Shown here piece after piece: positions 2,559 through 54,991 of a stretch of 64,000 nucleotides of DNA. Under the pieces are notes generated by a model. The model was not told the DNA's origin. It saw nothing but the letters and a program-made list of their open reading frames with translations, and did no database searches. Source of the stretch: Ornithinimicrobium faecis (GTDB taxonomy: Bacteria > Actinomycetota > Actinomycetes > Actinomycetales > Dermatophilaceae); contig NZ_CP099489.1 of NCBI RefSeq assembly GCF_023923225.1, positions 2,232,001-2,296,000 of the forward strand. The letters run 5' to 3'. The translations under genes and the position numbers were made by a program. Position 1 is the stretch's first letter, and every line of letters starts with the position of its first letter.

Positions 2559-2582
2559 CCTGCGCCTCGGCATACCTCGACC

Positions 2583-3152: not shown

Positions 3153-3200
3153 CCTGGGACCCTCCTGTGGGCGATGGCACGATCAGGGGTCCAAGCGGCC

Positions 3201-3206
3201 TACAAT
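3201..3206 (+). promoter_or_regulatory. -10 box TACAAT for a leaderless rel transcript
   Basis: TACAAT lies six bases before the ATG at 3213. This is the spacing expected if transcription starts at the A of the start codon. No ribosome binding site is seen. The element also argues against the upstream in-frame ATG at 3174. Confidence 0.6.
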
Positions 3207-3212
3207 CGCGTC

Positions 3213-5516: not shown

Positions 5517-5593
5517 CCGGCCGATGGTCTCGCACCAGAGCGCCTGACCGGCCGATGGTCTCGCACCAGAGCGCCTGACCGGCCGATGGTCTC
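5501..5593. repeat. Three exact copies of a 31-bp tandem repeat over the rel stop codon
   Basis: The unit begins GCACCAGAGCGCCTGACC and runs head to tail at 5501-5531, 5532-5562 and 5563-5593 with no mismatch. The rel TGA (5514-5516) is in the first copy. Each later copy repeats the codons for the last rel residues plus a stop, so slippage or duplication here leaves the protein unchanged. Confidence 0.95.
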
Positions 5594-5611
5594 CTGGTCC
5601 GTTTAGGGCGG

Positions 5612-5685
5612 TTGACCGTGCATCCAAACAGGTAACGTCAGACGTGCCCGCACAACGGTGCAGGTCAGGGCCCTGCGCCAGGTGA
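5612..5685 (+). promoter_or_regulatory. Orphan promoter-like element with a 13-codon leaderless ORF
   Basis: TTGACC (5612-5617) and TAACGT (5633-5638) are 15 bases apart. A GTG at 5644, five bases further on, opens a 13-codon frame with two Cys codons that ends at 5685. No plus-strand gene follows for over 4 kb, and the next gene is convergent. It could drive a small RNA, an antisense to the aminopeptidase gene, or a tiny peptide. It could also be chance. Confidence 0.3.
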
Positions 5686-5766
5686 GGCTTGACGACTTTG
5701 CCTGTCTGGGTGCACGCGCATCACCGACGAGCTGGCCAGGGACGCCAGGTGAACCAGGATGCGCCC

Positions 5767-7065: not shown

Positions 7066-7068
7066 GGC

Positions 7069-9096: not shown

Positions 9097-9833
9097 TCTG
9101 TTGCCTTTTCCTGTGTGACCTCGACCGAGAGGATGCTGATCGGTGCCGCCGGGGTTCCGTCGGCACCGCCGCCATCGACGCCTTGTTCGGCGACGCGGTC
9201 CACTATGTCCATTCCATTGGTGACCCTACCGAAGATGCTGTAGCCACCACCTTCAATTGGCAGTTCCGTGTCCTGATAGACGATGAAGAACTGTCCACCA
9301 TTGCTGTTGGGGTCCTGGCTGCGGGCCATCGCTAGCGTGCCGGGCGGATACTTCCCGTCCTCGGGAGCGTTCTCGATGCCGAAGGTATAGCCGGGGGCGC
9401 CGCGACCGGTGCCGGTGGGGTCACCGCACTGCAGCACGAAGATGCCCTGCGTGGTCAACCGGTGGCACGGGCTGTCGGCCCAGTAGCCAGCCTCGGCGAG
9501 ATGTCCGAACGAGGCCACGGTGGCGGGAGCCTCATCGCCGAAGAGCTCGACCTCGATCGTGCCGCAGTTGGTGTCGATGGAGCCGATCCACGTCCCAGCG
9601 GCCTCGGCCTGAGGTGCCTCGAGGGGCTCCATGGTCCGTGCGCTCGGCACCACCGGAGGTTCGCTGCAGCCAGCACTCGCACCGGCTGGGGAAAGCGTGG
9701 CGGTGGGTCCGCTGACGTCGTCACGTCCCTCATCCGCAGAGTCGGTGGTGTCGGGACTGCCGCATGCGGTGAGCAGGACGACGCTGACCACTAGCGATCC
9801 AAGTGCCTGCCACCGGTGACGACCCAGCGCCAT
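9093..9833 (-). CDS. Cyclophilin-type peptidyl-prolyl isomerase lipoprotein
   Basis: This is a predicted secreted, membrane-anchored prolyl isomerase. The chosen 246-residue form starts at ATG 9833, which has AGGAG eight bases upstream; a GTG further out exists but lacks this. The N-terminus is a lipoprotein signal with lipobox LLTACGS, followed by a Ser/Thr-rich linker. The cyclophilin domain (from about residue 80) carries CHRLTTQGIFVLQCGDPTGTG, GQFFIVYQDT and YSIFGRV. Classical active-site positions are partly changed (FVLQCGD in place of FMIQGGD), so activity is likely but not certain. The position beside rel/hisS matches mycobacterial ppiB. Confidence 0.9.
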   Translation of the reverse strand: MALGRHRWQALGSLVVSVVLLTACGSPDTTDSADEGRDDVSGPTATLSPAGASAGCSEPPVVPSARTMEPLEAPQAEAAGTWIGSIDTNCGTIEVELFGDEAPATVASFGHLAEAGYWADSPCHRLTTQGIFVLQCGDPTGTGRGAPGYTFGIENAPEDGKYPPGTLAMARSQDPNSNGGQFFIVYQDTELPIEGGGYSIFGRVTNGMDIVDRVAEQGVDGGGADGTPAAPISILSVEVTQEKATE

Positions 9834-9937
9834 TCGTGTGCTCCTGACGTGCTCGGCCAAAGGTGGAGCGGCCAGTCTAGGCAGCGCCTCACAGCGAAAC
9901 GGTCACAGCCCGATGACGGTTTGGACACGATCGGACG

Positions 9938-9943
9938 TAGGTT
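9938..9943 (+). promoter_or_regulatory. -10 box TAGGTT for the MBL hydrolase gene
   Basis: TAGGTT is seven bases before the ATG at 9951, the leaderless spacing. It lies between the divergent cyclophilin and hydrolase genes. Confidence 0.5.
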
Positions 9944-9950
9944 TGGTCAC

Positions 9951-10643
9951 ATGTTGGTCATCAGCATCGAAGCAGCCGCTTTTGGCACGAATTGCTACCT
10001 GGTCGCCCCGGCCTCAGGCGAGGAGTGTCTCATCGTCGACCCGGGGGTCGGCGTGGAGGCCCAGGTCGCTGAGACGCTCGCCCAGCACGGGCTGCGCCCG
10101 GCCGCAGTCCTGCTCACCCACGGCCACCTGGACCACACCTACTCAGTGACGCCGGTCTGCGGGGGCACCACTGCGGCATACATCCACCAGGACGACCGCT
10201 ATCGCCTCCGGGACCCGCTGGCCAGCACGAGTCCGCAGTTGCTTGGGATGCTCGAGCAGCAGTTCGGCCGCCGTGCCAACTGGGCTGAGCCGGACACCGT
10301 TGTCGACCTCGCCGGTGGTCAGGAACTGGACCTGGCAGGCCTCTCGCTCGGGGTCGCGCACGCCCCCGGGCACACCGAGGGCTCCGTGCTCTTCAGCCTG
10401 CCCGGCGTGCCGACCGGGATGCCGGACGAGGTGGACCGCACGGTGCTGACCGGTGATGTGCTGTTTGCCGGCTCGATCGGTCGCACGGATCTGCCAGGTG
10501 GTGACCACAGCGCGATGCTGCGGTCGTTGCGTGATGTGGTGCTTCCACTGCCGGACTCCAGCCTGGTGCTGCCGGGCCACGGACCGGCCACCAGCATCGC
10601 CCGCGAGCGCGCCACCAACCCCTACCTGACCTCGCTGACCTGA
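9951..10643 (+). CDS. MBL-fold metallo-hydrolase (glyoxalase II-like)
   Basis: This is a metal-dependent hydrolase of the glyoxalase II/YcbL group, probably acting on a thioester; the substrate is unknown. The 230-residue protein has the signature THGHLDHTYS near residue 60 (HxHxDH), a second metal His in HAPGHTEGS, TGDVLFAGSIGRTDLPGG, and a final His in LPGHGPATSI. The start at 9951 is supported by the TAGGTT box; upstream in-frame sequence has no good start. The gene lies between cyclophilin and hisS, as in Mycobacterium tuberculosis Rv2580c-Rv2582. Confidence 0.9.
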   Translation: MLVISIEAAAFGTNCYLVAPASGEECLIVDPGVGVEAQVAETLAQHGLRPAAVLLTHGHLDHTYSVTPVCGGTTAAYIHQDDRYRLRDPLASTSPQLLGMLEQQFGRRANWAEPDTVVDLAGGQELDLAGLSLGVAHAPGHTEGSVLFSLPGVPTGMPDEVDRTVLTGDVLFAGSIGRTDLPGGDHSAMLRSLRDVVLPLPDSSLVLPGHGPATSIARERATNPYLTSLT

Positions 10644-10708
10644 CGGCCCGCCGGGGTGCACCCAGGCAGGACGCCGAGCACGGGGGCGGAGCACAGCGCG
10701 AGCCTCGT

Positions 10709-10714
10709 TAGACT
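10709..10714 (+). promoter_or_regulatory. -10 box TAGACT for leaderless hisS
   Basis: TAGACT lies exactly six bases before the GTG at 10721 and no Shine-Dalgarno is present, so transcription probably starts at the start codon. Confidence 0.6.
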
Positions 10715-10720
10715 CGCCGC

Positions 10721-12121
10721 GTGATCAAACCCCACACTGCCCCCGGCACCCTCGAGCTCCTGCCCACCGAGCAGATCGCGTTCCAACGCATGCTCGACGT
10801 GATCCGGTCCGGCTATGAGCGGTTCGGGTTCCTGCCCATCGAGACGCCGGCCTATGAGCTGACCGACGTGCTGCTCACCAAGACCGGTGGCGAGACCGAG
10901 CGGCAGGTCTATTTCGTGCAGTCCACCGGCTCCCTGGAAAAGGCTGCGGCACAGGATGACCCGGCCCTGCCCGAGCTGGCGCTGCGGTTCGACCTGACGG
11001 TGCCGTTGGCGCGCTATGTCGCCGAGCACGAGCACCAGTTGACCTTCCCGTTCCGGCGCTATCAGATGCAGCGGGTCTATCGCGGCGAGCGCCCGCAGAG
11101 GGGCCGCTACCGCGAGTTCTATCAGTGCGACATCGACATCATCGGCAAGGACGGGCTCAGCCCCCGCCACGACGCAGAGTGCCCGGCGGTCATCCACACG
11201 ATCTTCACCGACCTCAACATCGGCGCCTTCACGATCCAGCTCAACAACCGCAAGTTGATGCGCGGGGTCTTCGAGGACCTGGGCATCACTGACACCGATC
11301 AGCAGGTGGCTGTGCTGCGTGAGGTCGACAAGCTCGACAAGCGCGGCCCCGATGCCGTGCGCGAGACGTTGGTCGGCGATTGCTATGGCCTGGCGGCAGA
11401 TGCCGTCGCCGCCCTGCTGACGCTCGTCGCCACCCGCTCCACCTCCCACGATGACGCCCTGGCGATCCTTGACCGGGTCCAGCGCGAGTCAGCGGGCTCG
11501 GCGACGCTCGCCACCGGTGTGGCGGAGTTGCGTGAGGTGCTGTCCGTGCTGCGCGACCTGGGAGTCCCCGAGAGCGACTACGCCCTCAACCTCTCCATCG
11601 CGCGCGGTCTGGACTACTACACCGGCACGGTCTATGAGACGACCCTCGACGATCACCCGGAGATCGGGTCGGTCTGCTCCGGCGGGCGCTATGACGACCT
11701 CGCCGGGCAATACACCAAGTCCAAGCTGCCGGGCGTGGGGATGTCGATCGGCCTGACCCGGCTGTTCTGGCAGCTGCGCGAGGCGGGCATCGTCGGCACC
11801 GCGGAGTCGACGGTGCAGGTGCTCGTGCCTCAGCTCGACGAGGCTCACCTCCCGCAGTGCCTGGCCCTGGCCACGGACCTGCGGCAGGGCGGCATCAACA
11901 CCGAGGTGGTCCTGGACGGCGGCAAGCTCGGGAAGCAGCTGAAGTATGCCGATCGTGCCGGGATCAGGTTCGTCGCCATCGTGGGGGCCCAGGAGGTGGA
12001 GGCTGGGACCGTCACCATCAAGGACCTGCGCCGCCAGGACCAGTTCACGGTGGCCCGTGACGAGGTGGTGCCGGCCGTGCGGGTGGAGTTGGCCCAGCCG
12101 CTGGACGTCTCGCGCGACTGA
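10721..12121 (+). CDS. hisS: Histidine--tRNA ligase
   Basis: HisS charges tRNA-His. The 466-residue class II synthetase shows the motif 2 region [19 protein letters not shown], followed by [12 protein letters not shown], the histidine-binding stretch [14 protein letters not shown], and a C-terminal anticodon-binding domain beginning near [11 protein letters not shown]. The length is somewhat above the short bacterial forms. Translation probably starts at GTG 10721 on a leaderless mRNA. The gene is directly upstream of the histidine biosynthesis operon. No T-box or leader peptide was seen before it. Confidence 0.95.
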
Positions 12122-12133
12122 CTTCCGTCGGCG

Positions 12134-12183
12134 CTCGTGAGTGCGGGCACCGCCCCTCCAGGGGGGTGGAGTGCACTCACGAG
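12134..12183. repeat. 50-bp palindromic element after hisS (possible terminator)
   Basis: The arms CTCGTGAGTGC (12134-12144) and GCACTCACGAG (12173-12183) are perfect complements. Between them, CCGCCCCT and AGGGGGGTGG form an inner stem. It begins 13 bases after the hisS stop, so it could end hisS transcription. A degenerate relative occurs at 32987-33036. Confidence 0.8.
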
Positions 12184-12203
12184 TGACCCTGATCGCGTGT
12201 GCC

Positions 12204-12247
12204 TTGGGATTCAGCGCGGCAAGCGTGTTAGCGTAATAGCGCGTTAC
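12204..12247 (+). promoter_or_regulatory. Promoter region and dyad operator of the his operon
   Basis: A -35-like TTGGGA (12204-12209) precedes a TTAGCG/TAGCGT -10 region near 12228-12234. A short dyad, GTAATAGCGCGTTAC (12233-12247), sits at the expected transcription start. The first gene downstream encodes a TrpR-fold DNA-binding protein, so autoregulation through this dyad is a reasonable inference. Base pairing outside GTAA/TTAC is imperfect. Confidence 0.4.
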
Positions 12248-12296
12248 TACACCACCCGTGGTCGGCCCCGTCCGACAGTCCACCCTGGAGCACCCG

Positions 12297-12641
12297 ATGA
12301 AGCGCCGTGACACCGGCCAGCCCCGCAGCGCCAGCGACGAATTGTCGCCGCGCGAGCAGGCCCAGGCTGCTCTGGCGCAGGCGCTGGCCTCGGTGGAGGA
12401 CCCCGCCCAGATGGCCGACTTCCTCACCGACCTGTGCACCCCGGCAGAACTCGAGGCACTGGCCGACCGGTGGAGTGTCGTGCCGCTGATTGAGGACGGA
12501 GTCTCCTATCGCCAGGTGCACGAGCAGACCGGCGTCAGCGTGACCACCGTGGGCCGCGTCGCCCGCTGCCTCGAGCACGGGACCGGCGGTTACCGCGCCG
12601 TCCTCGCGCATACGCGCGGTGCGCAGCCCGCCCACGGCTGA
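12297..12641 (+). CDS. YerC/YecD-type TrpR-related DNA-binding protein
   Basis: This is a small helical DNA-binding protein of the TrpR superfamily, 114 residues. The TrpR-like core includes [15 protein letters not shown], followed by the helix-turn-helix [23 protein letters not shown]. The start at ATG 12297 has GGAG eight bases upstream; upstream in-frame GTGs lack one. It is the first gene before hisGDCBHAF(IE), so it is the obvious candidate regulator of that operon. Its ligand is unknown, and histidine or a pathway intermediate would be a guess. From memory, YerC-like genes also precede his operons of xanthomonads, which should be checked. Confidence 0.85.
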
Positions 12642-12662
12642 GCGCACCACCCCAGAGATTCT

Positions 12663-12680
12663 GGTCGCAGCGACGCGACC
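12663..12680 (+). promoter_or_regulatory. Short hairpin in the YerC-hisG gap
   Basis: GGTCGC and GCGACC form a six-pair stem with a six-base loop in the 121-nt spacer before hisG. It has no T-run and no histidine-rich leader peptide accompanies it, so it is at most an mRNA processing or stability element. Confidence 0.3.
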
Positions 12681-12762
12681 GACCACGGCGCACCGCGCCG
12701 CCAGACCTGCACCACTGCATACGGCCAGAGTTGTTCCTGGCCCAAGATCACGGAAGGTCACC

Positions 12763-13671
12763 ATGACCCCGCCTGCCACCACCCGGGACCGCCTGCGCGT
12801 GGCGATCCAGAAGTCCGGTCGCCTCGCCGAGCCGGCCCGCGACCTGCTCGCCTCGTGCGGGCTGACCTGGCGCGAGAGCCGGGACAAGCTGTTCTGCTAT
12901 GGCGAGTCCCTGCCCGTGGACCTGCTGCTGGTCCGCGACGACGACATCCCCGGCCTGATCGCCGACGGCGTCTGCGACCTCGGCGTGGTCGGACGCAACG
13001 TCCTGGTCGAGCACGACCTGGGGCGCACGGCCAACGGCCAGGCTGCCGCGCTCAAGGAGTGGCGTCAGCTCGGGTGGGGTGTCTGCCGCCTCGACATCGC
13101 CATCAACGACGACGAGCAGTGGACCGGCCCGGAGCAGTTGGCCGGTCGGCGGATCGCCACCAGCTTCCCGCGCACTCTCGAGGACTGGCTGACCGACAAG
13201 GGTGTGGACGCGCAGGTCGTCACCCTGTCCGGGTCGGTGGAGATCGCCCCGCGCCTGGGGCAGGCCGACGTGGTCTGTGACCTGGTCTCCACCGGCGGCA
13301 CCCTGGCGGCCAATGCCCTCAAGCCCGTCGAGACGCTGCTGCACTCCGAGGCTGTCATCGCCGGTCCGTTCGCCCCGCTGGAGGACGGTCGCGAGGAGAT
13401 CGCCGACCTGCTGCTGCGCCGGATGGATGGTGCGCTGCGGCTGAAGGAGACGCGCCTGCTGATGCTCCGCGCGGGCCGTGACGTGCTGACCGAGGTGCTC
13501 CAGCGGCTGCCGGCCGGTGGCGAGCCGACCGTGCTGCCCGTGGATGGCCGCGACGAGGTCTCGGTGCAGCTGCTCTGCCACAACGCTGTCCCGTGGCCGC
13601 GGCTGGAGGAGCTCAAGCGTGCCGGGGCGCACACGATCATGGTGCTGCCGGTCGAGGGGATGCTCGCATGA
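12763..13671 (+). CDS. hisG: ATP phosphoribosyltransferase, long form
   Basis: HisG catalyses the first step of histidine synthesis, PRPP plus ATP to phosphoribosyl-ATP. The 302-residue protein is a long-form enzyme with its own C-terminal regulatory domain, so it needs no His[34 protein letters not shown] and [26 protein letters not shown] closely follow the enterobacterial/xanthomonad pattern. The C-terminal domain ends in [14 protein letters not shown] 12763 has GGAAGG before it. The stop overlaps hisD (ATGA). Actinobacterial hisG is normally paired with hisE elsewhere, so its position here is unusual. Confidence 0.94.
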
Positions 13672-15032
13672 GGACGGTCACCTGGTCCGAGGTCGATGAG
13701 ACCACCCGCGCTGAGTTGCTCTCCCGTGGCACGGCTGCCGCCGGGCCGCAGGTCACGTCGGGGGTCGCCGACATCCTGGAAGGTGTCCGGGAGGGCGGCG
13801 ATGCCGCACTGCAGGCGTATGCCGAGAGGTTCGACCGCGCGCCGGCTCAGTCCGTGGTGGTTGGCCAGGAGGAGATCGCCCGGGCTGCCGCCGAGCTGCC
13901 GGAGGCGTTGCGCACCGCGATCACCGACGCCGCCACCAACATCCGCACCTTCCACCGGGCCGGCATGACGGTGAGTTATGAGGTCGAGACCGCCCCCGGC
14001 GTGATCTGCGCGCGGGTGGTCCGCCCGATCCGCCGGGTGGGGCTCTATGTCCCCGCCGGCAGCGCCCCCCTGCCCTCGACCGCGCTGATGCTCGGTGTCC
14101 CCGCGCAGCTCGCAGGCTGCCCTGAGGTCGTCCTGTGCACGCCGCCGGGGGAGGACGGGCGTGCGGACCCGACCGTGCTGGCAGCGGCCGCCGAGTGCGG
14201 GATCACCCGCGTCTTCGTGACCGGGGGAGCGCAGGCGATCGCTGCGATGGCCTATGGCACCGAGTCCGTGCCGCGCTGCGACAAGATCTTTGGGCCCGGG
14301 AACGCGTGGGTCACCGAGGCCAAGCGGCAGGTCAGCACGGCCGAGGGCGGCCCCGGGATCGACATGCCGGCCGGGCCCTCGGAGGTGCTGGTCATCGCGG
14401 ACGCCGGGGCGGACGCCGAGTTCGTGGCCGCAGACCTGCTCTCCCAGGCCGAGCACGGCCCGGACTCGCAGGTGCTGCTGCTGACCGACGATGACGCAGT
14501 GGCCCAGGCGGTGGCCGAGCAGGTCGAGGAGCAGTTGGCCGTGTTGCCCCGGGCCGACATCGCAGCAAAGTCCCTGGGCTCCAGTGCCATCGTGGTCACC
14601 CAGGATCTGGACGAGGCGTTCGCCATCAGCAACGACTATGCCCCCGAGCACCTCATCCTGGCGCTGCGCGAGCCCGAGGACTGGTTGCCCAAGGTTGAGC
14701 GCGCCGGGTCGGTCTTTCTCGGGGACTGGGCCCCCGAGACCCTGGGTGACTATTGCAGCGGCACCAACCACGTGCTGCCCACCGCCGGCGCCGCGCGCTG
14801 GACCGGCGGGGTCAACGTCGCGAGTTTCCAGATCGCGATGACCGTGCAGCGGGTGAGCCCGGAGGGTCTGGCCGCGGTCGGACCGACGGCCGTGGAGCTG
14901 TCGGGCGCCGAGGGTCTGATCGGTCACCAGGCTGCGGTCACCCGGCGCCTGGCCCGTGCCTCGACGACTGGGGCGACCACGGCGACGACCAGTGGGGCGA
15001 CCACGGCGACGACCACGGGGGCGACCTCGTGA
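13668..15032 (+). CDS. hisD: Histidinol dehydrogenase
   Basis: HisD oxidises histidinol to histidine in two NAD-dependent steps. The 454-residue protein has [18 protein letters not shown], the family signature around [15 protein letters not shown] (near residue 210), [15 protein letters not shown], and the zinc-ligand regions [10 protein letters not shown] and [12 protein letters not shown]. The ATG overlaps the hisG stop. The last about 20 residues are a Thr/Ala/Gly tail ([19 protein letters not shown]) encoded by a short 24-bp minisatellite at about 14969-15029. This tail lies outside the conserved fold. Confidence 0.95.
14969..15029 (+). repeat. 24-bp minisatellite encoding the HisD tail
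   Basis: About 2.5 copies of a 24-bp unit containing GCGACCACGGCGACGACCA lie at the 3' end of hisD. They translate to the Thr/Ala/Gly tail and stay in frame. Confidence 0.75.
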
Positions 15033-16213
15033 TGGCGGACCAAACCCCTCAGACAATGCCTGACGGGCGTGCGACACCTCCCTCAAAAATCGGGGAGTTC
15101 CGTGCACAGCTGATCCGGGAGGACCTGCGCGACTTCACCGGCTATTCCTCGGCGCGCACCAGCGACACCGGCGCCCCGGCCACCATCTGGCTCAACGCCA
15201 ACGAGGCCTCGACCGCCAGCGCGATCGACCCCGAGGGTGCCCAGCGGCGCTATCCCGACCCGCAACCGGCCGATCTGATGGCCGCCCTCGCCGACACCTA
15301 TGGCGTCCGGCCGGAGCAGGTGGTCGTTGGCCGGGGGAGCGATGAGTGCATCGACCTGCTGGTCCGCACCCTCACCGCCCCCGGTGGTCAGGACGCGATC
15401 GTCCAGGCACCGCCAACCTTCGGGATGTATGCCGTGTCCGCCCGACTCCACGGCGTGCCGGTGATCGACGTCCCCCAGCGGGATCTCGGCACCCTCTGGG
15501 AGGTCGACGTTGACGGGATGCGCGCGGCCGTGGAGGCTGGCGGCGCCACAGCGGTCTTCCTGACCAGCCCCGGCAACCCGACCGGTGCGGTCGTCCCGCT
15601 GGAGGACATCGAGCAGCTCGCTGCGGACCTGGCCGACCAGGCCGTGGTGGTGGTCGATGAGGCCTATCAAGAGTTTGCCGGACCACGCAGTGCCGCAACA
15701 CTGTTGGACGCCCACCCCAACCTGGTGGTGCTGCGCACGCTGTCCAAGGCCCACGGCCTGGCTGGGGCGCGCATCGGCACAGCCCTGTGCCACCCGGACC
15801 TGGCCACGGTGCTGCGCCGGGTGCAGGCGCCCTATCCGATGCCGACCCCGGTCGCCGAGCTCGCGGTCGCAGCCCTGTCGGCATCGGTGCGCCGCTCGGT
15901 CGACGCCCGCGTCCTGCAGACCCGCACCAGCCGCGAGTTGCTCGCCGAGATCCTGCAGGCCGACCCGCGGGTGACGTCGGTCTATGCCAGCGAGGCCAAC
16001 TTCCTGCTGGTCCGCGGCCCCGGTGTGGACTCCCTGCTCACCGAGCTGCGGGCCAGTGGCATCGTGGTGCGCGACATGCGCCACCTGCTCACCGACGCCC
16101 TGCGGGTCACCGTGGGGTCACCGGAGGAGATCGAGGCAGTCCAACAATCCCTGGGCAGTGCCGCCCAGCCCAGCACACTCACCCCCGCACGAGCACGAGG
16201 AATCCACACATGA
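15032..16213 (+). CDS. hisC: Histidinol-phosphate aminotransferase
   Basis: HisC transfers the amino group from glutamate to imidazole acetol phosphate using PLP. The 393-residue protein is a class I/II aminotransferase with [32 protein letters not shown], the PLP-contact stretch [20 protein letters not shown] and the lysine motif [13 protein letters not shown]. The ATG at 15032 overlaps the hisD stop; the same frame stays open upstream inside hisD, but that extension is acidic His/Asp repeat sequence and is rejected. The stop overlaps hisB. The pattern resembles gammaproteobacterial HisC. Confidence 0.94.
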
Positions 16214-17304
16214 GCACGCAGCGCCCCGTCCTGTTCATCGACCGGGACGGCACCCTGATCGAGGAGCCCGAGGACTGTCAGATCGACGCCTTCGACAAGC
16301 TTCGCCTGGTGCCGGGGATCATCCCGGCCCTGACCCAGTTGCGCGACGCTGGCTGGGACTTCGTCATGGTCTCCAACCAGAACGACCTGGGCGGGCCGAA
16401 CTTCCCCGTGGAGACCTTCCAGGGCCCGCACGACCTGCTGCTGCACATCCTGGAGAGCCAGGGCATCACCTTCAAGGAGGTGCACGTCGACCCGCACCCG
16501 CCGGGCCCCAACCAGCCCGACACCCGCAAGCCGGGCATCGGCATGGTCAAGCACCTCCTCAAGGACCGCAGCATCGACTGGGACCGCTCGATGATGGTCG
16601 GTGATCGCCTCTCCGACCAGGAGTTTGGCGACAACCTCGGCATCAAGACCTTCCTGCTGCAGAGCTCGATGGGCCAGGGCGGGGACGAGGCGGTCAGCTG
16701 GGACCACATCGCCCACGTGCTGTCCAACCGACCACGTGTCGCCGTCGTGGACCGCAACACCTCCGAGACCACAATCCACGTCGAGGTGGACCTGGACCGC
16801 ACCGGAGACATCCAGGTCTCCACCGGGCTGGGCTTCCTGGACCACATGCTTGACCAGTTGGCCAAGCACGGCGGTTTCTCGATGAAGGTCACCTGCGAGG
16901 GCGACCTGCACATCGACGAGCACCACACCATCGAGGACACGGCCCTGGCGATCGGCCAGGCCATCGACGAGGCGCTCGGCGACCGGCGCGGGATCGGCCG
17001 TTACGGGTTCACCGCGCCGATGGACGAGGCCCAGGCCAGTGCCGCCCTCGACCTGTCCGGGCGTCCGTTCCTGAAGTTCGAGTGCGACTTCAACCGCGAG
17101 ATGGTCGGCGACCTGCCGACCGAGATGGTGGAGCACTTCTGGCGCTCGTTCGCCGAGGCTCTGCGAGCCACCCTGCACCTGTCGGTGACTGGCGACAACG
17201 CCCACCACCAGATCGAGGTGGGCTTCAAGGCCGTCGCCCGCGCGCTGCGTCAGGCCCTGCGCGTGGAGGGCAGCGAGCTGCCGTCGACCAAGGGTGTGCT
17301 GTGA
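16210..17304 (+). CDS. hisB: Bifunctional histidinol-phosphatase / imidazoleglycerol-phosphate dehydratase
   Basis: HisB here carries two pathway activities in one 364-residue chain. Residues 1 to about 170 form a HAD-type histidinol-phosphatase with the nucleophile motif FIDRDGTL (Asp11, Asp13), VSNQNDLGG, a zinc-like CH-poor loop near [15 protein letters not shown], and MMVGDRLSD. Residues about 175-364 form the dehydratase with [44 protein letters not shown] and [12 protein letters not shown]. Actinobacteria usually have a single-domain HisB and a separate phosphatase. The fused form is typical of Enterobacteria, Xanthomonads and Bacteroidetes, which is strong evidence of transfer. Confidence 0.95.
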
Positions 17305-17307
17305 GCC

Positions 17308-17919
17308 GTGGCTAGGTCCAGGGTCGCGCTCGTCGACTCCGGCGGCACCAACATCGGGTCCGTGCGCTATGCCCTGGACCGCATCGGCGCAGACGCCCGA
17401 CTGACCAGTGACCCGGCGCAGATCCGCGCTGCCGACCGGGTCATCCTCCCGGGGGTCGGGGCAGCAGGAGCCGGTATGCGGAGGCTCCGGGAGGCCGGAC
17501 TGGTGGAGGTCCTGCGAGAGGTCGAGCAACCCCTCCTCGGGGTGTGCCTGGGCATGCAGTTGCTCTTTGACTGGTCCGCCGAGGACGGCGGCGTCGAGTG
17601 CCTCGGTCTGCTGCCCGGGGAGGTCGTCCCCATCCCGCGTGCCCCTGGTCTGCGGGTGCCCCACATGGGCTGGAACACCCTGACTGCCGTGCGTAACGAT
17701 CCGGTCACGGCAGGGCTGCCTGACGGGACGCGCGCGTATTTCGTGCATAGTTATGGCGTCCCCGTCACGTCCGACACGGTCCTGACGACCGAGCACTCCG
17801 GCACCTGGAGCGCTGTGGTGCGCCGGGGCAACAGGTGGGGCGCACAGTTCCACCCCGAGCGATCGGCCCGTGCCGGCGCGAGGCTTTTGACAGACTTCGT
17901 CTTGGAGGTGACGCCATGA
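17308..17919 (+). CDS. hisH: Imidazole glycerol phosphate synthase, glutaminase subunit
   Basis: HisH releases ammonia from glutamine for HisF. The 203-residue class I glutaminase has the oxyanion segment LPGVGAA, the nucleophile Cys in GVCLGMQLLF, the VPHMGWNTL block and the His/Glu pair in QFHPERS. The opening VALVDSGGTNIGSVRYALDR matches the xanthomonad style more than the GNLRS style usual in actinobacteria. The GTG start is four bases after the hisB stop, and the stop overlaps hisA. Confidence 0.94.
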   Translation: MARSRVALVDSGGTNIGSVRYALDRIGADARLTSDPAQIRAADRVILPGVGAAGAGMRRLREAGLVEVLREVEQPLLGVCLGMQLLFDWSAEDGGVECLGLLPGEVVPIPRAPGLRVPHMGWNTLTAVRNDPVTAGLPDGTRAYFVHSYGVPVTSDTVLTTEHSGTWSAVVRRGNRWGAQFHPERSARAGARLLTDFVLEVTP

Positions 17920-18662
17920 CCGACTTCACCGTCTATCCCGCGATCGACGTCCGCGAGGGCCGCGTCGTCAGGTTGCACAAGGGTGACTACGCCAAGGAGA
18001 CCCGCTACCCGACCGAGCCGCTGGAGGTGGCACTGGAGTATGCCGAGGGCGGAGCCAGTTGGCTGCACCTGGTTGATCTGGACGCCGCCCGCGCCGGGGG
18101 TTACACCCTGATCCCGCTGCTGCGCGAGATCGTCTCCGAGACACCGCTGTCCGTGCAGACCGGCGGAGGAGTGCGCAGCAAGGAAGACGTCGAGGCTCTG
18201 CTCGAGGCGGGTGCCTCCCGCGTGGTGATCGGCTCTCTCGCCGTCACGGAGCCGGAGACGGTCACCGAGTGGATCCAGGACTTCGGCACGGACCGGATCA
18301 CCGTCGCGCTCGACGCGCGCACCGGTGAGGACGGCTCCTGGGTGCTGCCCACTGCCGGGTGGACCTCCGACTCCGAGACCGACCTCGCGGTGCTGCTGAG
18401 CCACTACGCCCGCTCGGGTCTGGCACACGCTCTGTGCACCGACATCGGCCGGGACGGCACGCTGTCCGGCCCGAACCTCAACCTCTACACCTTCCTGACA
18501 CGCGCTGTTCCCGACGTTGCGGTGCAGGCCTCTGGCGGCACCCGCCACGCGGCCGACGTGCGTGGGGTCCGCAAGCTCGGTTGCGCCGGCGTCATCCTGG
18601 GCAAGGCCCTGCTCGAGGGTCGCCTGACCATCGACGAGGCCATCGCCGAGGAGCGCGAGTGA
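17916..18662 (+). CDS. hisA: Phosphoribosylformimino-AICAR-phosphate isomerase (HisA)
   Basis: HisA isomerises ProFAR to PRFAR in a (beta/alpha)8 barrel. The 248-residue protein begins [20 protein letters not shown] (catalytic Asp in AIDV), with [38 protein letters not shown] (second catalytic Asp) and a C-terminal phosphate site LGKALLEG. This is the proteobacterial HisA pattern. It does not resemble actinobacterial PriA, which also does the TrpF step. If no other hisA/priA or trpF exists in the genome, tryptophan synthesis would need explaining. Confidence 0.93.
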
Positions 18663-49238: not shown

Positions 49239-49246
49239 GCGCCCGG

Positions 49247-49283
49247 CGTCATCCTGCAGGAGCCGGACGTCATCCTGCAGGAG
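49247..49283. repeat. Two direct copies of CGTCATCCTGCAGGAG
   Basis: The 16-bp word lies at 49247-49262 and 49268-49283, with an inner CTGCAG palindrome, in the space before the CHAT cluster. It may be a duplicated binding site. Confidence 0.6.
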
Positions 49284-49332
49284 GTAGACGGCCGCACCAC
49301 CCCTGAGTACGCTCAAACCACTGAGCGCACGG

Positions 49333-50793
49333 GTGCGGTCCCGGATGGGCATGACCTCCGGGTTCGTCGCGGCGACGGGCACCTCGGCCGGCAGCGGCCG
49401 GGCAGTCCCGGCGCCCACTGGACCTCTCCAGAGAGCCGACACGATGGCTGCGATCGATGGACCCTGGCGCGTTGTCACCGGACCGGGCGGCGGGACCGCC
49501 CCGTTCTACATGATCAGGTTCGACAAGCGGGGCGGGTGCACCAGCCCGTCCAGTCTCCGGCGCCTCGTGGTCGCTGCCGCCGGAGCCACCGACGTCTTCG
49601 TGTTCAGCCACGGCTGGAACAACGACTGGGCCTCCGCCACGCGGCACTATCAGGAGTTCATCGACCAGTTCAACCAGCAGTATGCCGAGGCCTGGCACCC
49701 CCCGAACCGGGACTATCGTCCGGTGCTGGTCGGGGTCCACTGGCCCAGCACCGTCCTGGTGGCCCGCGATGAGCGGGGCCCCGACATCGCCGGTGGGGAC
49801 ATCGCTGGTGGGGACATCGCTGGTGGGGAGCGCGACGCCGCGCAGGAGGACGACCTGGCTGTCGAGTTGCTCGCTGAGGGCCTCGATGCCGTGCAGGCCG
49901 GCCGGTTCTACGAGTTGGCCGACCGACCCGCGCTGAGCACAGAGGAGGCCCTCGAGTTCGCCACCCTGCTGGCTCCCGTGCTGTCCGGTCCGGAGGACGA
50001 GCTCGGGTCGGGACCGGACGTCACCCCGGACCCCGAGGACCTGGTCCGATTGTGGGCCTCGATGCCCGGTGACGAGCCTGGGGTGCCCGTCGACCGCGGA
50101 GGCTTCGCGGACGACGAGCCACCGGGTGAGCGAGAGCCCGGACCTCAGACGGCCGGGTGGCTGGACAACCTCAACCCGCGCAACCTGATCCGCGGTGCGA
50201 CAGTCCTGCTCATGAAAGACCGTGCCGGACGCGTCGGAGGTGCCGGCGTCCGGGACATGCTGCACGACGTCCTGGACGCCTCGACCGACTCCAGGGTCCA
50301 CCTCGTCGGGCACAGCTATGGCGCCAAGGTCGTCCTGTCCGCGCTGGCCAACGGCAGCGCACCCACACGCGGGGTGGAGTCGGTGCTGCTGCTGCAACCA
50401 GCCACGTCAGCCAGGTGCTTCGCCGACCCGGACGGGACAGCACCGGCCGGTGGCTACCGTCCGGCCCTGGAGCGCTCCCGGCAACCGATCATGACGACCT
50501 TCAGCAGCCACGACGTGCCGCTGACTAGACTGTTCCACCTCGCTGCACGGCGGGCGTCAGATCGGCGGGAGGCGGTCATCGCCGCAGGACCCTCCGAGTT
50601 TGCCGCGCTGGGTGGATTCGGCCCCCAGGACACCGCCTCGGTCATCGTCGTGGACGCGGTCATCGCGCCGCAGCGTTACGCGATGCCGAGCACGGAGGTG
50701 CTCGCGATCCGGGCAGATGGGGTGATCAGCGGCCACGGTGACGTGCAGAATGCAGCGACCGCCTGGGCCCTGCTGTGCCAGGTGATGGGTTAG
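49333..50793 (+). CDS. CHAT-cluster gene 1: alpha/beta hydrolase-like protein
   Basis: I do not recognise a named family. Read from GTG 49333 it has 486 residues; ATG 49444 (MAAIDGPWRVV) is an equally good start, as the first 37 residues look non-conserved. The hydrolase-like parts are VFVFSHGWNNDW (oxyanion strand), GVHWPST and the nucleophile elbow HLVGHSYGAKVVL (Ser328), with a late DGVISGHGDVQ His candidate. Between them is an acidic insertion with three DIAGG repeats and no membrane segment. It is three bases before gene 2. A lipase/esterase-type activity on an unknown target is inferred. Confidence 0.72.
   Translation: MRSRMGMTSGFVAATGTSAGSGRAVPAPTGPLQRADTMAAIDGPWRVVTGPGGGTAPFYMIRFDKRGGCTSPSSLRRLVVAAAGATDVFVFSHGWNNDWASATRHYQEFIDQFNQQYAEAWHPPNRDYRPVLVGVHWPSTVLVARDERGPDIAGGDIAGGDIAGGERDAAQEDDLAVELLAEGLDAVQAGRFYELADRPALSTEEALEFATLLAPVLSGPEDELGSGPDVTPDPEDLVRLWASMPGDEPGVPVDRGGFADDEPPGEREPGPQTAGWLDNLNPRNLIRGATVLLMKDRAGRVGGAGVRDMLHDVLDASTDSRVHLVGHSYGAKVVLSALANGSAPTRGVESVLLLQPATSARCFADPDGTAPAGGYRPALERSRQPIMTTFSSHDVPLTRLFHLAARRASDRREAVIAAGPSEFAALGGFGPQDTASVIVVDAVIAPQRYAMPSTEVLAIRADGVISGHGDVQNAATAWALLCQVMG
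49786..49830 (+). repeat. 15-bp in-frame triplication in CHAT-cluster gene 1
   Basis: GACATCGC(C/T)GGTGGG occurs three times head to tail and encodes DIAGG-DIAGG-DIAGG in the acidic insertion. Confidence 0.85.
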
Positions 50794-50796
50794 GCC

Positions 50797-52122
50797 GTGG
50801 CCCAACGCCTGCGCACCGACCATGACCTGCCCTCCCTGAGGATCGCCTTCGGTGACGGGGGCCGAGAGGTCGTGCGCTTCTGGCTGGTGCGAGGCGCCGG
50901 CCAGCCCGAGTTGGCGGCCCAGTGCCAGGCGTCCGAGCTCGGTCCCGTCGACTTCCCCGACGGTGATGGTGACGGCACCGTCACCGACGACCAGTTCTCC
51001 CTGCCCTCCGACGTGCTGTTCGAGCTGTCCCAGCGCATCCCCGGGCTCGGCTCCTCGGACTCGCCCCCGGACAACGCCCTGTGGTTGGAGTTGGTGAGTC
51101 CACGTGGCTACCTGCACCTGGTGCCCTGGGAGCAGTTGCTCCAACCGCTGGGCCGGCCCCTGGTGCGACTGCCCAACTACACCGTGCGCCCCCAGGCCCA
51201 GTCACAGACGCTGGAGGTCGCGCTCTGTGCCAGCACGCCGGTCTTCCGGAGCGAGTTCGACCCGCCCGCCACCCTGGCCCGGCTGGCTCGGCTGTGGGTG
51301 ACCATGGCCGGCAAGCCGACCACGGTGCACCTGTTCTGTGACCAGTGGGCGCACGCACAGGTGGCGGAGTTGGTCGCGGACCTGGACGGGGTGCACCTGG
51401 CCGATCCCTCTGGGTGGGGCGCGGTGGCCCATCCTGCCTCGATGGTCAGCAACGCCTGGCTGGAGTGGATCGGCGGCACGCTGGAGGGACGTGCCCTGGA
51501 CGTCGTGCACCTGGTCGGCTACGGCTACCTCTCGGCAGGGCGCGGAGCGGTGGCGCTGGCCGCCACACCGACCAGCAGCGCCCGGGAGCACGCAGAGTTC
51601 GTCGGTGCCGCACAGCTGGCGCAGTTCGTGGCCTCGCGCGGGGCGTGGACCTTCGTGGTCAGTGGCCCACCGGACAACTACTCCGGCGCTGCCCTGCGCG
51701 ATGTCGCCGACAGCCTGGCGATCAACAGCCCCGGCATCAGCATCGCCCACGACCTGACATTGGACCCAGACGTCAGCCAGCTCACCCGGGTCGTCGAGCT
51801 GATCTATGCCGGCCAGGACTCGATCACCGAGCCGCTGCCCGGGATCGCGTGCTGGGCCCATCCAAAGTTTGTGGAGTATCCCGAGGAGAACCTCATCACC
51901 CGCACGGGTCACTCGGCCATGGTCGGAGCAGCCACCCAGACCGTGTTGGCCGCGCCAAACACTCCCGCCTCGGTCGCCTCCGGCACGCGCTATCTGGAGG
52001 CACTGCAGGCCCAGTGGAGCGCCACCGGTGGCGGCGCGATCGACGCCGACGCGGTCGCCGCACTGCGCCGGGTCTCTGACGTCCTGGAGCATCGTGCTGC
52101 TGAGTTTCAGGGGGACTCGTGA
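50797..52122 (+). CDS. CHAT-cluster gene 2: CHAT-like pseudoprotease
   Basis: The 441-residue protein looks like a CHAT domain without its active site. LVSPRGYLHLVPWEQLLQPL (about residues 99-118) matches the P-W-E core also seen in gene 3. VVHLVGYGYLS (about 236-246) sits where CHAT proteases have the His-Gly motif, but with Tyr-Gly. TFVVSGPPDN (about 285-294) sits where the catalytic Cys is expected. The assignment rests on this pattern and on the neighbour, not on a search. GTG 50797 is three bases after gene 1. The GTGA overlap couples it to gene 3. Confidence 0.6.
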   Translation: MAQRLRTDHDLPSLRIAFGDGGREVVRFWLVRGAGQPELAAQCQASELGPVDFPDGDGDGTVTDDQFSLPSDVLFELSQRIPGLGSSDSPPDNALWLELVSPRGYLHLVPWEQLLQPLGRPLVRLPNYTVRPQAQSQTLEVALCASTPVFRSEFDPPATLARLARLWVTMAGKPTTVHLFCDQWAHAQVAELVADLDGVHLADPSGWGAVAHPASMVSNAWLEWIGGTLEGRALDVVHLVGYGYLSAGRGAVALAATPTSSAREHAEFVGAAQLAQFVASRGAWTFVVSGPPDNYSGAALRDVADSLAINSPGISIAHDLTLDPDVSQLTRVVELIYAGQDSITEPLPGIACWAHPKFVEYPEENLITRTGHSAMVGAATQTVLAAPNTPASVASGTRYLEALQAQWSATGGGAIDADAVAALRRVSDVLEHRAAEFQGDS

Positions 52123-53555
52123 GCCGCCTCGTCTTCAGCGTGGTGGGCCTGCGCACCGCCAGTGGGGTCACGCTGGGAGTCCAGCTGCGGGAGCCGCCCG
52201 CCTTCGGGCGCCACGCGGTGGAGCTGTCGTTGACGCCGATGGCAGCGCCGTTCCAGGCCCTGCACGGCGAGCCGGGGGCGAACGCTGTGCGCGAGGCCGG
52301 CCGGGCCCTGTTCGACGCCCTGACCTCCAACAACCCCGATCTGCGCAAACACCTGGAGGCTGCCCTGCTGGTCCAGCCACCTGACCGGTGCCCGGTGTTC
52401 GTGGAGCTCACCACCGGAGGCGCCGAGAGCTTCCCCTGGGAGGCGCTGTGCTCCCAGGACGGTGACTTTCTGGGGCTGGACGAGCGGTGGGCGGTGGGAC
52501 GCATCGTGGAGTCGATCAGCCCGCTGCCGGCGACCTGGTTCTTTGAGCCACCGCTGAGGGTTGCAGTGGTGCTCTCCTGCCTGGGTGTGCCGGCGGCCCC
52601 AGAATGGGTTGCCCTGCGGGCCGCGTGTGAGGCGGCCCAGGTGCCTGTTGAGCTGCTCGTCCTGGTCAGTGAGGACTCCCTGCACGAGGAGATCAGCGGT
52701 GCCGGTCTGGACTGGGTCACCGTGGAGTTCGTCCCCTCGACGGTGGCCGGCATCGCCCAGCGTCTCCAGCCGTTCAACGCCCACGTCCTGCACCTGTTCT
52801 GCCACGGGATCTCGACCGGCACCAGCCCGCACCTGCAGGTCGCGGTCCGGTCGGACTGGCTCACCGGCACCGCGAGCAGCCTGCTGGTCGAGGCGCAGGA
52901 CCTGCGTGCCTTTAACCCGCCAGTCGACAGCCTGCCCTGGCTCGTGGTGCTGAACAGTTGCGAGACGGCGGCCGCCGGAGGCGATGAGTCGGCGCGGTCG
53001 GTGGCCCTTGACCTGATCACCACGGGCGGTGTGCCGGCAGTCGTGGGGATGCGCGAGCCGATCCGCTCGGCCGACGCTGTCCTGTTCACCAGGGCGTTCT
53101 ATGACCAGTTGCTGCCCGAGGTCGCTCACCTGCTCGACCCCGCCGCCGAGGCAGCCCCCATCGAGTGGGCCCGCTTGGTGGTGGGAGCCCGTGCGCAGAT
53201 CGCCGAGCAGTATGAGCCGCTCGAGGCACAGCGTGGCACTCGGAAGGAGTGGACCCTGCCGGTCGTGTACACCCGATCAGCCAGCTTCCAGGTGCAGACC
53301 AGTGTCACGCCTGTCACGGAGCAACCTGCCGCGGAGCAGCCTGTCTCGGGACAGCCTGCACAACGTGTCCCGGAACAGCCCATGGCACCGCCGCCCGACC
53401 AGGACGTCGGAGCAGAGACGACCCGTTCGATCGTCCTCAGCATCCGGACACTCACCGGCATGCGCGCCCAGGTGGAGGGCTCCGGGGACCAGGTCATGCT
53501 CGATCTCATCGACCAGGAGCTCGCGCGGCTGCGTGCGGCGCTCGCGGGCAGGTGA
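52119..53555 (+). CDS. CHAT-cluster gene 3: CHAT domain cysteine protease
   Basis: CHAT domains are caspase-like proteases (clan CD). The 478-residue protein has AESFPWEALCSQDG (about 102-115) and the catalytic His229 in HVLHLFCHGIS. Cys281 in WLVVLNSCETAAAGG is the catalytic Cys, and GGVPAVVGMREPIRSADAV is the usual distal strand. Both catalytic residues are intact. A linker rich in EQP repeats (about 385-420) leads to a C-terminal helical segment. There are no TPR repeats, signal or membrane segments. It overlaps genes 2 and 4 by GTGA. Its target is unknown; self-cleavage or activation of a partner is plausible. Confidence 0.88.
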   Translation: MSRLVFSVVGLRTASGVTLGVQLREPPAFGRHAVELSLTPMAAPFQALHGEPGANAVREAGRALFDALTSNNPDLRKHLEAALLVQPPDRCPVFVELTTGGAESFPWEALCSQDGDFLGLDERWAVGRIVESISPLPATWFFEPPLRVAVVLSCLGVPAAPEWVALRAACEAAQVPVELLVLVSEDSLHEEISGAGLDWVTVEFVPSTVAGIAQRLQPFNAHVLHLFCHGISTGTSPHLQVAVRSDWLTGTASSLLVEAQDLRAFNPPVDSLPWLVVLNSCETAAAGGDESARSVALDLITTGGVPAVVGMREPIRSADAVLFTRAFYDQLLPEVAHLLDPAAEAAPIEWARLVVGARAQIAEQYEPLEAQRGTRKEWTLPVVYTRSASFQVQTSVTPVTEQPAAEQPVSGQPAQRVPEQPMAPPPDQDVGAETTRSIVLSIRTLTGMRAQVEGSGDQVMLDLIDQELARLRAALAGR

Positions 53556-54991
53556 CCCTCGTGCCTGACTCCGCGCCGGCTCCGACCCCGTTGCGGGAGT
53601 TGACAGTCCGAGCCAACGCCTTCACCGACGAGGGACCAGCGACCGGCGCCATCTCCGAGACATTCGGGCGCTGGACGGTGGGGGCTGCGGCCCTGGGCAG
53701 CCGTCAGCTGGTGCCCAGCGCCGCCGACCCGACGGACTGGACGCACCCTCGGATCGGGTGGGGGATCATCCTCCCCGAGCGGGACGGGCTGGACCCCGCC
53801 GCTCTGGCGACCGCCGACGATGCGCCCGAGCCGATCCGTGACCTGGTGCGCCAGCGTGCCGGCAAGGTGCTGCGTTATCGCCCCGGGACCACCCTGGCCC
53901 AGTGGGTGCTGCGCGACTATGCCAGCGAGGGGGATCTGTTCACGGCGGCCTCTCCGCAGGGCATGGGTCCCAAGGAGTTGCCGCTCTACCTGCTGATCGC
54001 GGCCTCTCCGGCTGAGGTCCCCTGGCAGGTTCAGTACGCGCTGAACCCGGTGCGCTGTGTCGGGCGGCTGGACCTGGACGAGGAGGGGTTGGCGCACTAT
54101 GTGGCGGCGCTCCAGTCGGGTTGGGCTGGTTCGACCGCGCAGTATGCCGCGCCCCTGGTCTGGTCCGTCGATCACGGCGGGGGAGACATCACTTCCCTCA
54201 TGCGCGAGGTCATCGGGGCCACCCTGGCGACCGAGCTCGCCGCAGACGCGGACATGCCGGCAGCCCGGTTCATCGACGGCTCCGTGGCCGACGCCTCGGG
54301 CGCTGTGCTGATCGCTGCGCTGGCTGAGCTGCGCCCGCTGCTGGTGGTCACGACCAGCCACGGCAAGACCGGCCCGCTCAACGACCCCGTCGTGATGCTG
54401 CGCGACCTAGGGATGCTCGTCGACGCGTCCCAGCGGGTGGTTGACCCTGCAGCGCTGACGGCCGGATGGCAGCCGGACGGCGCGGTCTGGTTCGCGCAGG
54501 CGTGCTGCTCCGCCGGTGCGGATCAGCCGTCCGTCTACGAGGGGCTCTTCGCGGCTGGCGGGTCGGTCGGACGGGTGCTCACCGAGGTGGCCCGGCTCGG
54601 CCCGCGGACGGCGCCGACGCCGCGGGCCCTGCTGGGGGCACCCAAGCCGCTGCGGGCCTTCATCGGCCAGGTGGAGCCGACCTTCAACTGGACCATGGAG
54701 TTCCCCGCGACCCGCCAGGACCTGACCGCGAGCCTGCGGCGGTCGGTCTATGAGGGGATCTGCGGGGGCCGACCGGTGGGGCTGGCGATGGACGGCTACT
54801 ACGCCCCGATCGGGTCGCTGCTGGTCAATCACGGCCGCCAGCTGCAGGATTTCGACTCCGGTGCCTCCGCAGCCCTGGACCTGGCGACCTACAGCAAGGC
54901 CACGGCCTATGACCGCGCGAGCACTGTGCTCCTCGGCGACCCGACGGTGGCGATCCCGCTGCCAGCTGCCGGCCTGGCATCGCCCGGCTGA
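53552..54991 (+). CDS. CHAT-cluster gene 4: caspase-fold-like protein
   Basis: The family is not recognised. The 479-residue protein has ELPLYLLIAASPAEVPWQVQ (about 142-161), a strand-His motif LLVVTTSHGKTGPL (His270) and VWFAQACCSAGAD (Cys318/Cys319). The order hydrophobic strand-[S/T]HG, then strand-x-[A/G]C-x-x-[A/G], is the hallmark of clan CD cysteine peptidases such as caspases and gingipains. The C-terminal part has RAFIGQVEPTF, where caspase-fold proteins often place binding loops, and VLLGDPTVAIPL. It overlaps gene 3 by GTGA; GTG 53561 is an alternative start. It may be a second protease. Confidence 0.7.
   Translation: MTLVPDSAPAPTPLRELTVRANAFTDEGPATGAISETFGRWTVGAAALGSRQLVPSAADPTDWTHPRIGWGIILPERDGLDPAALATADDAPEPIRDLVRQRAGKVLRYRPGTTLAQWVLRDYASEGDLFTAASPQGMGPKELPLYLLIAASPAEVPWQVQYALNPVRCVGRLDLDEEGLAHYVAALQSGWAGSTAQYAAPLVWSVDHGGGDITSLMREVIGATLATELAADADMPAARFIDGSVADASGAVLIAALAELRPLLVVTTSHGKTGPLNDPVVMLRDLGMLVDASQRVVDPAALTAGWQPDGAVWFAQACCSAGADQPSVYEGLFAAGGSVGRVLTEVARLGPRTAPTPRALLGAPKPLRAFIGQVEPTFNWTMEFPATRQDLTASLRRSVYEGICGGRPVGLAMDGYYAPIGSLLVNHGRQLQDFDSGASAALDLATYSKATAYDRASTVLLGDPTVAIPLPAAGLASPG

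Follow-up and report, generated by a model that had tools for sequence, protein, structure and literature searches.

A widespread four-gene system of CHAT, clan CD protease-like and hydrolase-fold proteins with a probable relation to known conflict systems

What do four tightly packed genes, encoding a hydrolase-like protein, two CHAT proteins and a further protease-like protein, do together in Ornithinimicrobium faecis? They lie on the plus strand of the window, that is, the whole stretch of 64,000 nucleotides (nt) analysed here (contig NZ_CP099489.1, positions 2,232,001 to 2,296,000), and a preliminary description of this DNA had taken them for a possible compact protease cascade. We conclude that the four genes are a real unit and a widespread system, for which we found no name and which appears to be related to known conflict systems. 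With a probability of roughly 0.55, we read them as a mobile, self-contained module of regulated proteolysis, in which the CHAT pair would act on gene 4, and gene 4 on gene 1, in immunity or regulated cell death.

A conserved unit of four genes

The cassette consists of the following genes (window coordinates; aa, amino acids):

49444..50793, plus strand: gene 1, predicted alpha/beta-hydrolase-fold serine hydrolase, 449 aa (weak Pfam matches, triad, predicted fold)
50797..52122, plus strand: gene 2, putative pseudo-CHAT (inactive CHAT homologue), 441 aa (profile match to gene 3, dyad lost)
52119..53555, plus strand: gene 3, CHAT cysteine protease with His229/Cys281, 478 aa (Pfam CHAT, dyad invariant)
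53552..54991, plus strand: gene 4, predicted clan CD (gingipain/separase-like) cysteine protease with His270/Cys318, 479 aa (alignment, predicted model, VIA-align, residues)

The open reading frames end at 50793, 52122, 53555 and 54991, and their coordinates confirm the coupling first described: a 3-nt gap separates genes 1 and 2, and GTGA overlaps join genes 2 and 3 (52119-52122) and genes 3 and 4 (53552-53555). Gene 1 had been placed from position 49333; the reading frame is the same, but the ATG at 49444 (449 aa) is a likelier start than the GTG at 49333 (486 aa), because homologues begin near there.

Related loci were collected from GTDB species genomes through the gene 4 alignment, using two peptide patterns, which yielded 50 loci from 117 pattern matches, a lower bound. 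Architectures were then read with models of all four genes at 51 loci, these 50 and a fragment of the window itself. Genes 1-2-3-4 follow one another on one strand in 31 of the 50 public loci (30, and L043 with gene 1 in two frames), and these full cassettes span Actinomycetota, Pseudomonadota and Chloroflexota. Gene 1 can be absent: six loci have genes 2-3-4 without it. Elsewhere the CHAT pair stands on the opposite strand, either with genes 1 and 4 (L033, L044, L047 and L048) or with gene 4 only (L042), or the genes are rearranged (L019, L020 and L022); one locus is an end fragment and one is the window's own fragment, and loci devoid of CHAT genes are considered below. A papain-family gene lies upstream in two of the loci lacking gene 1 (L028, by Pfam; L050, by cluster), and a subtilase gene adjoins the CHAT pair of L042. 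Other protease genes were seen at two further loci: in L020 (5621-8569; Chloroflexales) genes 1 and 4 are immediately preceded by genes for an HSP70-like protein and a clostripain (C11, a further clan CD protease), and in L048 (7726-8598; Planctomycetota, with a divergent CHAT pair) a trypsin-like gene is directly upstream of gene 1. Three loci carry a gene split over two frames, by sequencing error or decay, namely gene 1 in L043 (5883-7079; Ruegeria) and gene 4 in L044 (9336-10958; Actinoplanes) and L045 (9989-11734; Blastococcus).

The coupling is also conserved, with junctions of exactly -4 nt in 24 of 37 cases for genes 2-3 and in 22 of 39 for genes 3-4 (starts called by script). Moreover, the distance matrices of the four proteins correlate across 30 full cassettes (Mantel r 0.77-0.92 over six pairs, 0 of 999 permutations), a correlation partly raised by shared host history. 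Besides the cassette genes themselves, no gene family is common to more than five loci. It had been stated beforehand that the view of a system would fail if homologues of the genes were rarely adjacent, or if genes 1 and 4 belonged to housekeeping families; among close homologues neither was found.

The cassette is present or absent as a block. Within the window's genus, gene 4 occurs in 7 of 31 genomes and the gene flanking the cassette upstream in all 31, and one of these genomes (G301, locus L128) has an empty site, where both of the window's flanking genes border a stretch with no tblastn match to genes 1-4. In G303, another genome of the genus, a different, small contig carries a cassette that is far more distant, its gene 4 being 39.5% identical (L130:1335-6815). 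Of the 296 genomes of the window's class, four have gene 4 at E 1e-10 (a partial copy, E 1e-15, among them) and three have gene 2; the same three have strong gene 4 matches and gene 1 at E < 1e-130. Relatives also occur on five plasmid records. Three were examined, and the models recognise the complete set of four genes on each: on a Gemmobacter plasmid, on a Bradyrhizobium plasmid that is conjugative, and on an Embleya replicon that, at 3.1 Mb, is more a second chromosome than a plasmid. The gene 4 tree has 49 rows (Actinomycetota 24, Pseudomonadota 16, Chloroflexota 4, Acidobacteriota 2, Planctomycetota 1, Myxococcota 1 and the window 1), and its phylum labels need eight changes against a minimum of five, which hints at transfer, short of proof.

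An active and an inactive CHAT protein, a predicted clan CD protease and a predicted hydrolase

Gene 3 matches the Pfam CHAT family (PF12770; 2.6e-15, above cut-off), and its motifs FCHG and NSCE hold the His229 and Cys281 pointed out in the preliminary description, whose motifs for gene 1 (GHSYG) and gene 4 (SHG and ACCSAG) are likewise all present. His229, Gly230 and Cys281 are invariant in a 30-row alignment (A6); among the 51 members of a broader set that takes in divergent-layout partners, 46 keep the His and 49 the Cys (active-site counts refer to members covering more than 80% of the model at E < 1e-30). Among solved structures, the sole relative of gene 3 at E 0.01 is the SAVED-CHAT protein 8tl0 (E 8.3e-9), and the PADLOC model SAVED_CHAT is matched at 1.7e-6. 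No SAVED domain was found in gene 3, the 8tl0 and Pfam matches covering the CHAT part only, nor was any other domain.

As a single protein, gene 2 stays below the Pfam CHAT cut-off (E 0.087); aligned profile to profile with gene 3 (hhalign), it reaches a probability of 97% and an E-value of 3.9e-11. The complete His-Cys dyad occurs in none of 38 gene 2 copies, the window's included, with the His kept in 12 and the Cys in one (L009). Judged from these alignments, gene 2 is a CHAT homologue without the catalytic dyad, as had been proposed. Loci of other layouts repeat the pattern: in L020, L033, L042, L044, L047 and L048 one CHAT protein keeps His and Cys and its partner has lost one or both, L022 being the exception, where both proteins keep both residues. 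The CHAT pair is also the most divergent and fastest evolving part of the cassette, at a mean identity of 0.26 and 0.28 (genes 1 and 4: 0.40 and 0.44); a sensing side would be expected to behave so, which is suggestive at most.

Gene 4 has no match in Pfam (the gingipain family C25 included), NCBIfam or PADLOC. His270 is kept in 48 of 50 copies and Cys318 in 49; L043 lacks the His, and L045, where the copy is split over two frames, lacks both residues. In VIA-align its predicted model aligns with gingipain, and it has the clan CD fold, nearer to gingipain and separase than to caspases among the families present in the VIA-align rows; identity to gingipains is 12-14%. Foldseek alone ranked unrelated proteins first, and its high-probability rows were TPR-CHAT chains. 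A comparison with the sequences of solved structures gave five rows up to E 1, of which we took the best (0.0091, a ribosomal protein) to be chance. By predicted fold and His...Cys dyad, gene 4 is a clan CD cysteine peptidase; a caspase-like fold had first been ascribed to it, but its nearer kin are gingipain and separase. Its N-terminal tail carries a conserved [DN]A[FYW].G-like motif. In protein searches that each scored about 8,000 candidates and listed 120, homologues at E 0.001 number 1156 for gene 4 and 1112 for gene 1.

Gene 1 shows weak Pfam matches to Abhydrolase_1 (1.1e-4) and DUF900 (1.2e-4, above its cut-off), and its triad Ser328-Asp394-His468 (numbered on the 486-aa form) is kept in 38 of 38 relatives. 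The predicted fold is lipase-like, with DDHD, Tle3, LipA and cutinase tied as best matches and esterases among them. Fold prediction and the Ser-Asp-His triad place gene 1 in the alpha/beta hydrolase superfamily, and a lipolytic action may be supposed. None of the four proteins has a membrane-like or signal-like segment in a hydropathy scan.

The adjacency of gene 1 to the other genes holds for close homologues but not for a distant branch (E about 1e-42 to 1e-55), found on its own in 14 further genomes of the 296 of the class, 12 of them from one large-genome genus. The second gene 1 copy of G293 also belongs to this branch, and none of these 15 loci gave a match to genes 2-4. Neighbour families are common to 11-13 of the distant loci; a NamZ gene adjoins the distant gene 1 in five of five scanned loci, and a penicillin amidase gene in one of one. 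As candidate members of the cassette these relatives (L074-L088) were set aside as a separate branch. In two of them (L076:8384-11639 and L077:94-3054) the distant homologue is coupled to a subtilase gene, possibly a second hydrolase-protease pair.

Probable kinship with VMAP systems and likeness to other protease systems

A tie to a known system is seen at L022, from Candidatus Viridilinea (Chloroflexota; 139-18001 of an 18.5-kb contig). Genes 1 and 4 are fused there (about 935 aa), and the other strand encodes, in order, a CHAT-VMAP-C protein (VMAP-C 1.3e-31, CHAT 1.1e-20), an AAA protein and a 1,904-aa TPR-CHAT protein, the last with no vWA match. This is the order of VMAP, MoxR and third component given for VMAP ternary systems in the parts of Kaur et al. 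(2020; PMC7159879) drawn on here. L022 also encodes a second gene 4-like protein (3585-5537) and a WD40 protein. The gene 3 model used on VMAP loci included L022's CHAT proteins in its training; VMAP CHAT proteins are matched at 1.6e-18 to 6e-18 by a model built solely on the 30 full cassettes.

According to the same parts of that paper (PMC7159879), whenever VMAP bears a caspase-superfamily domain, an alpha/beta-hydrolase gene lies next to it; where the vWA component has a caspase domain, VMAP nearly always has one too; and among the caspase domains in effector position about 70% are inactive. The cassette resembles these caspase-type systems in combining a hydrolase with an active and an inactive CHAT protein. 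It too has an alpha/beta-hydrolase partner, and the hydrolases may be of the same family, a point on which L022 is the single locus to bear. Unlike the VMAP-MoxR-vWA arrangement, the cassette is made of four free-standing proteins, lacks VMAP-C, AAA/MoxR and vWA, and adds gene 4. VMAP-C (PF20028) has no match in the four proteins or in the window's genome, and neither AAA nor vWA has a Pfam match in the four proteins; across the class, VMAP-C occurs in 53 of 296 genomes (49 above cut-off), and of the three genomes with a strong cassette only G293 has it. We would place the cassette best among the relatives of the caspase-type VMAP ternary conflict systems, as a form without an NTPase.

Other protease systems share parts of the design. 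Steens and colleagues reportedly described, in 2024, SAVED-CHAT with a downstream prokaryotic caspase in type III-B CRISPR. SAVED-CHAT starts a proteolytic cascade, as stated in the part of PMC11229360 drawn on here, and the likeness is that a CHAT protease is proposed at the head of the cascade, 8tl0 being the solved relative of gene 3. The cassette differs in having a pseudo-CHAT and a lipase-fold hydrolase and no SAVED domain, and no solved structure gives gene 4 a meaningful match by sequence. In contrast to Craspase (Csx29, a TPR-CHAT protein, with gRAMP), there is no TPR match in the four proteins and no CRISPR effector in the operon. Gene 4 is also set apart from gingipains R and K and from separase, by the absence of membrane-like or signal-like segments and of a C25 match and by the low identity to gingipains given above. 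The cassette is like the EACC1-caspase systems (Kaur et al., 2020) in being centred on a caspase-superfamily protease without MoxR or vWA, and unlike them in that the window's four proteins have no membrane-like segment and no match to the NCBIfam EACC1-caspase model, which one CHAT protein of a divergent layout (L033) matches weakly (4.9e-5).

The preliminary description had found no NTPase, gasdermin or sensor in the operon, and Pfam indeed recognises no such domain in the four proteins. Its further statement that no known system has this set agrees with the open-licence PMC literature searched, in which the four-gene set was not found described, but has to be qualified by the VMAP precedent, as far as the parts of PMC7159879 drawn on here go, and by L022.

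A possible protease switch and its alternatives

We propose that genes 2 and 3 form an active/inactive pair that would hold the system off and sense a trigger. Once released, gene 3 would activate gene 4, perhaps by cutting its flexible N-terminal tail, and gene 4 would then work with, or unleash, gene 1, a lipase-fold hydrolase without secretion features. Growth would stop, the cell would die or an invader would be blocked. The division into a switch (the CHAT pair), an executioner (gene 4) and an end effector or partner (gene 1) is preferred because of the SAVED-CHAT precedent and the features of the module. Probably the role is in immunity or regulated death, because a conflict or death module fits the patchy presence as a block, the inactive twin, the two intact cysteine proteases and the hydrolase that is sometimes missing beside papain or subtilase genes.

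A bolder version, which we hold to be doubtful, has the pseudo-protease/protease pair sensing the invader directly and passing the signal to a separase/gingipain-fold executioner that licenses an intracellular lipase, with no NTPase, messenger or CRISPR part. The cassette would then have been exchanged between phyla, and it and the VMAP systems would be two builds of one ancestral circuit. An analogy for such a pair is cFLIP with caspase-8.

The alternative that survives best overlaps with our preferred reading and differs in the direction of control: genes 1 and 4 would be a two-enzyme effector restrained by the CHAT pair, and gene 3 would lift the restraint rather than activate gene 4. The fusion of genes 1 and 4 in L022 and their adjacency in the divergent layout suit this arrangement, as do the divergence of the CHAT pair and its occasional encoding apart on the other strand; the dyad of gene 3, intact in 30 of 30 A6 rows, argues that it is probably an enzyme and not a restraint alone, and the direction of control is not readable from sequence. 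We regard it as a tentative possibility.

Rather unlikely, in our view, is a purely physiological role in regulated proteolysis (stress, development or protein quality control), with no part in conflict and a patchy distribution due to dispensability. Genes 4 and 1 are fairly conserved, as a physiological role would allow, and the neighbourhood gives this explanation some room. Flanking genes vary between loci. The neighbour set comprised 145 proteins (up to two per cassette side, 80-1000 aa, no masked letters) from loci other than L001-L004, L008, L022 and L049, and 130 of them were scanned with Pfam and PADLOC, the other 15 being all those from L007, L016, L046 and L050. Pfam returned 161 families at 1e-5, which among the 25 listed are mostly metabolic; the caspase family Peptidase_C14 and phage integrase each occur in two neighbours. 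With PADLOC, 57 families appear at 1e-10, and among the 25 listed none is in more than two members. Four neighbour proteins matched FHIPEP (best 4.7e-11) for no clear reason, a match that ten proteins examined further did not show, and on the conjugative Bradyrhizobium plasmid a DUF499 gene lies near the cassette (L142:1-1153), a possible defence link. Against a physiological role speak the very patchy distribution, in the genus, in the class and on plasmid records alike, the occurrence as a whole block or not at all, the inactive protease partner, the VMAP link and the absence of gene 1 beside other protease genes in some loci, so that ordinary physiology is a weaker explanation than conflict.

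We reject, as a poor and exceedingly improbable explanation, the view that unrelated proteases stand together by chance or as a peculiarity of one lineage. Proteases and hydrolases are indeed frequent, and a distant gene 1 lacks genes 2-4 beside it in 12 genomes belonging to one genus, in two others and in the second copy of G293; but the order is conserved in 31 of 50 loci, and across several phyla the genes are coupled, co-vary and are present or absent together.

Several results weigh against the reading of the cassette as a conflict or death module with these parts. Genes 1 and 4 stand with no CHAT gene within the available stretch in L016 and L023, and gene 4 alone in L040 and L051; the sample, seeded on gene 4, is in any event a weak test of whether gene 4 can be missing, and host history accounts for part of the co-variation. 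In four of the six loci with genes 2-3-4, nothing was seen to take the place of gene 1. The VMAP tie comes from one locus, because only L022 carries genes 1 and 4 among the VMAP loci read. No match to genes 1-4 at E 0.01 was found at 20 actinobacterial VMAP-C loci, and no homologue of gene 1 or 4 at three other CHAT-VMAP loci of Chloroflexota, two of them on short contigs. Three Chloroflexota genomes contribute the VMAP-C loci L203-L209, and of these only L022/L209 has genes 1 and 4; L204 (19.9 kb, CHAT-VMAP) has neither, and L205-L207 are short contigs. By the patterns used, no relative was found in 50,697 phage records, nor was there one among 23 pattern matches in IMG/VR. Finally, the neighbours listed are mostly metabolic, and a defence neighbourhood is not demonstrated by 130 neighbours with no control set or background rate.

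Upstream of the cassette lies a candidate control region:

49241..49330, plus strand: promoter-like region of the cassette, tandem 21-nt repeats with palindrome TCCTGCAGGA, then a promoter-like pair

The pair consists of GTAGAC (49284-49289) and, after 18 nt, TACGCT (49308-49313). Their reading as -35 and -10 elements was made by eye; sigma-70 and terminator scans gave no match. The tandem repeat is partly kept upstream of gene 1 in close relatives bearing the cassette and was not seen at the empty site L128; the operator-like motif occurs in the genome as one exact copy and two with three mismatches, one of these being the neighbouring repeat. From inspection by eye, we take the upstream flank to be a Sua5-like gene and the downstream one, on the other strand, a multicopper-oxidase-like gene.

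Gene 4 defines a protease family of more than 1,000 homologues without a model in the Pfam, NCBIfam and PADLOC collections searched. If our preferred reading of the cassette as a regulated proteolysis module is true, few bacterial protease circuits of its type would be simpler: it would consist of four free proteins, with neither an ATPase nor a second messenger, and its switch and executioner could be rebuilt and measured in the test tube. The cassette also offers a simple context for the role of the hydrolase in the unexplained pairing of caspase and alpha/beta-hydrolase in VMAP systems.

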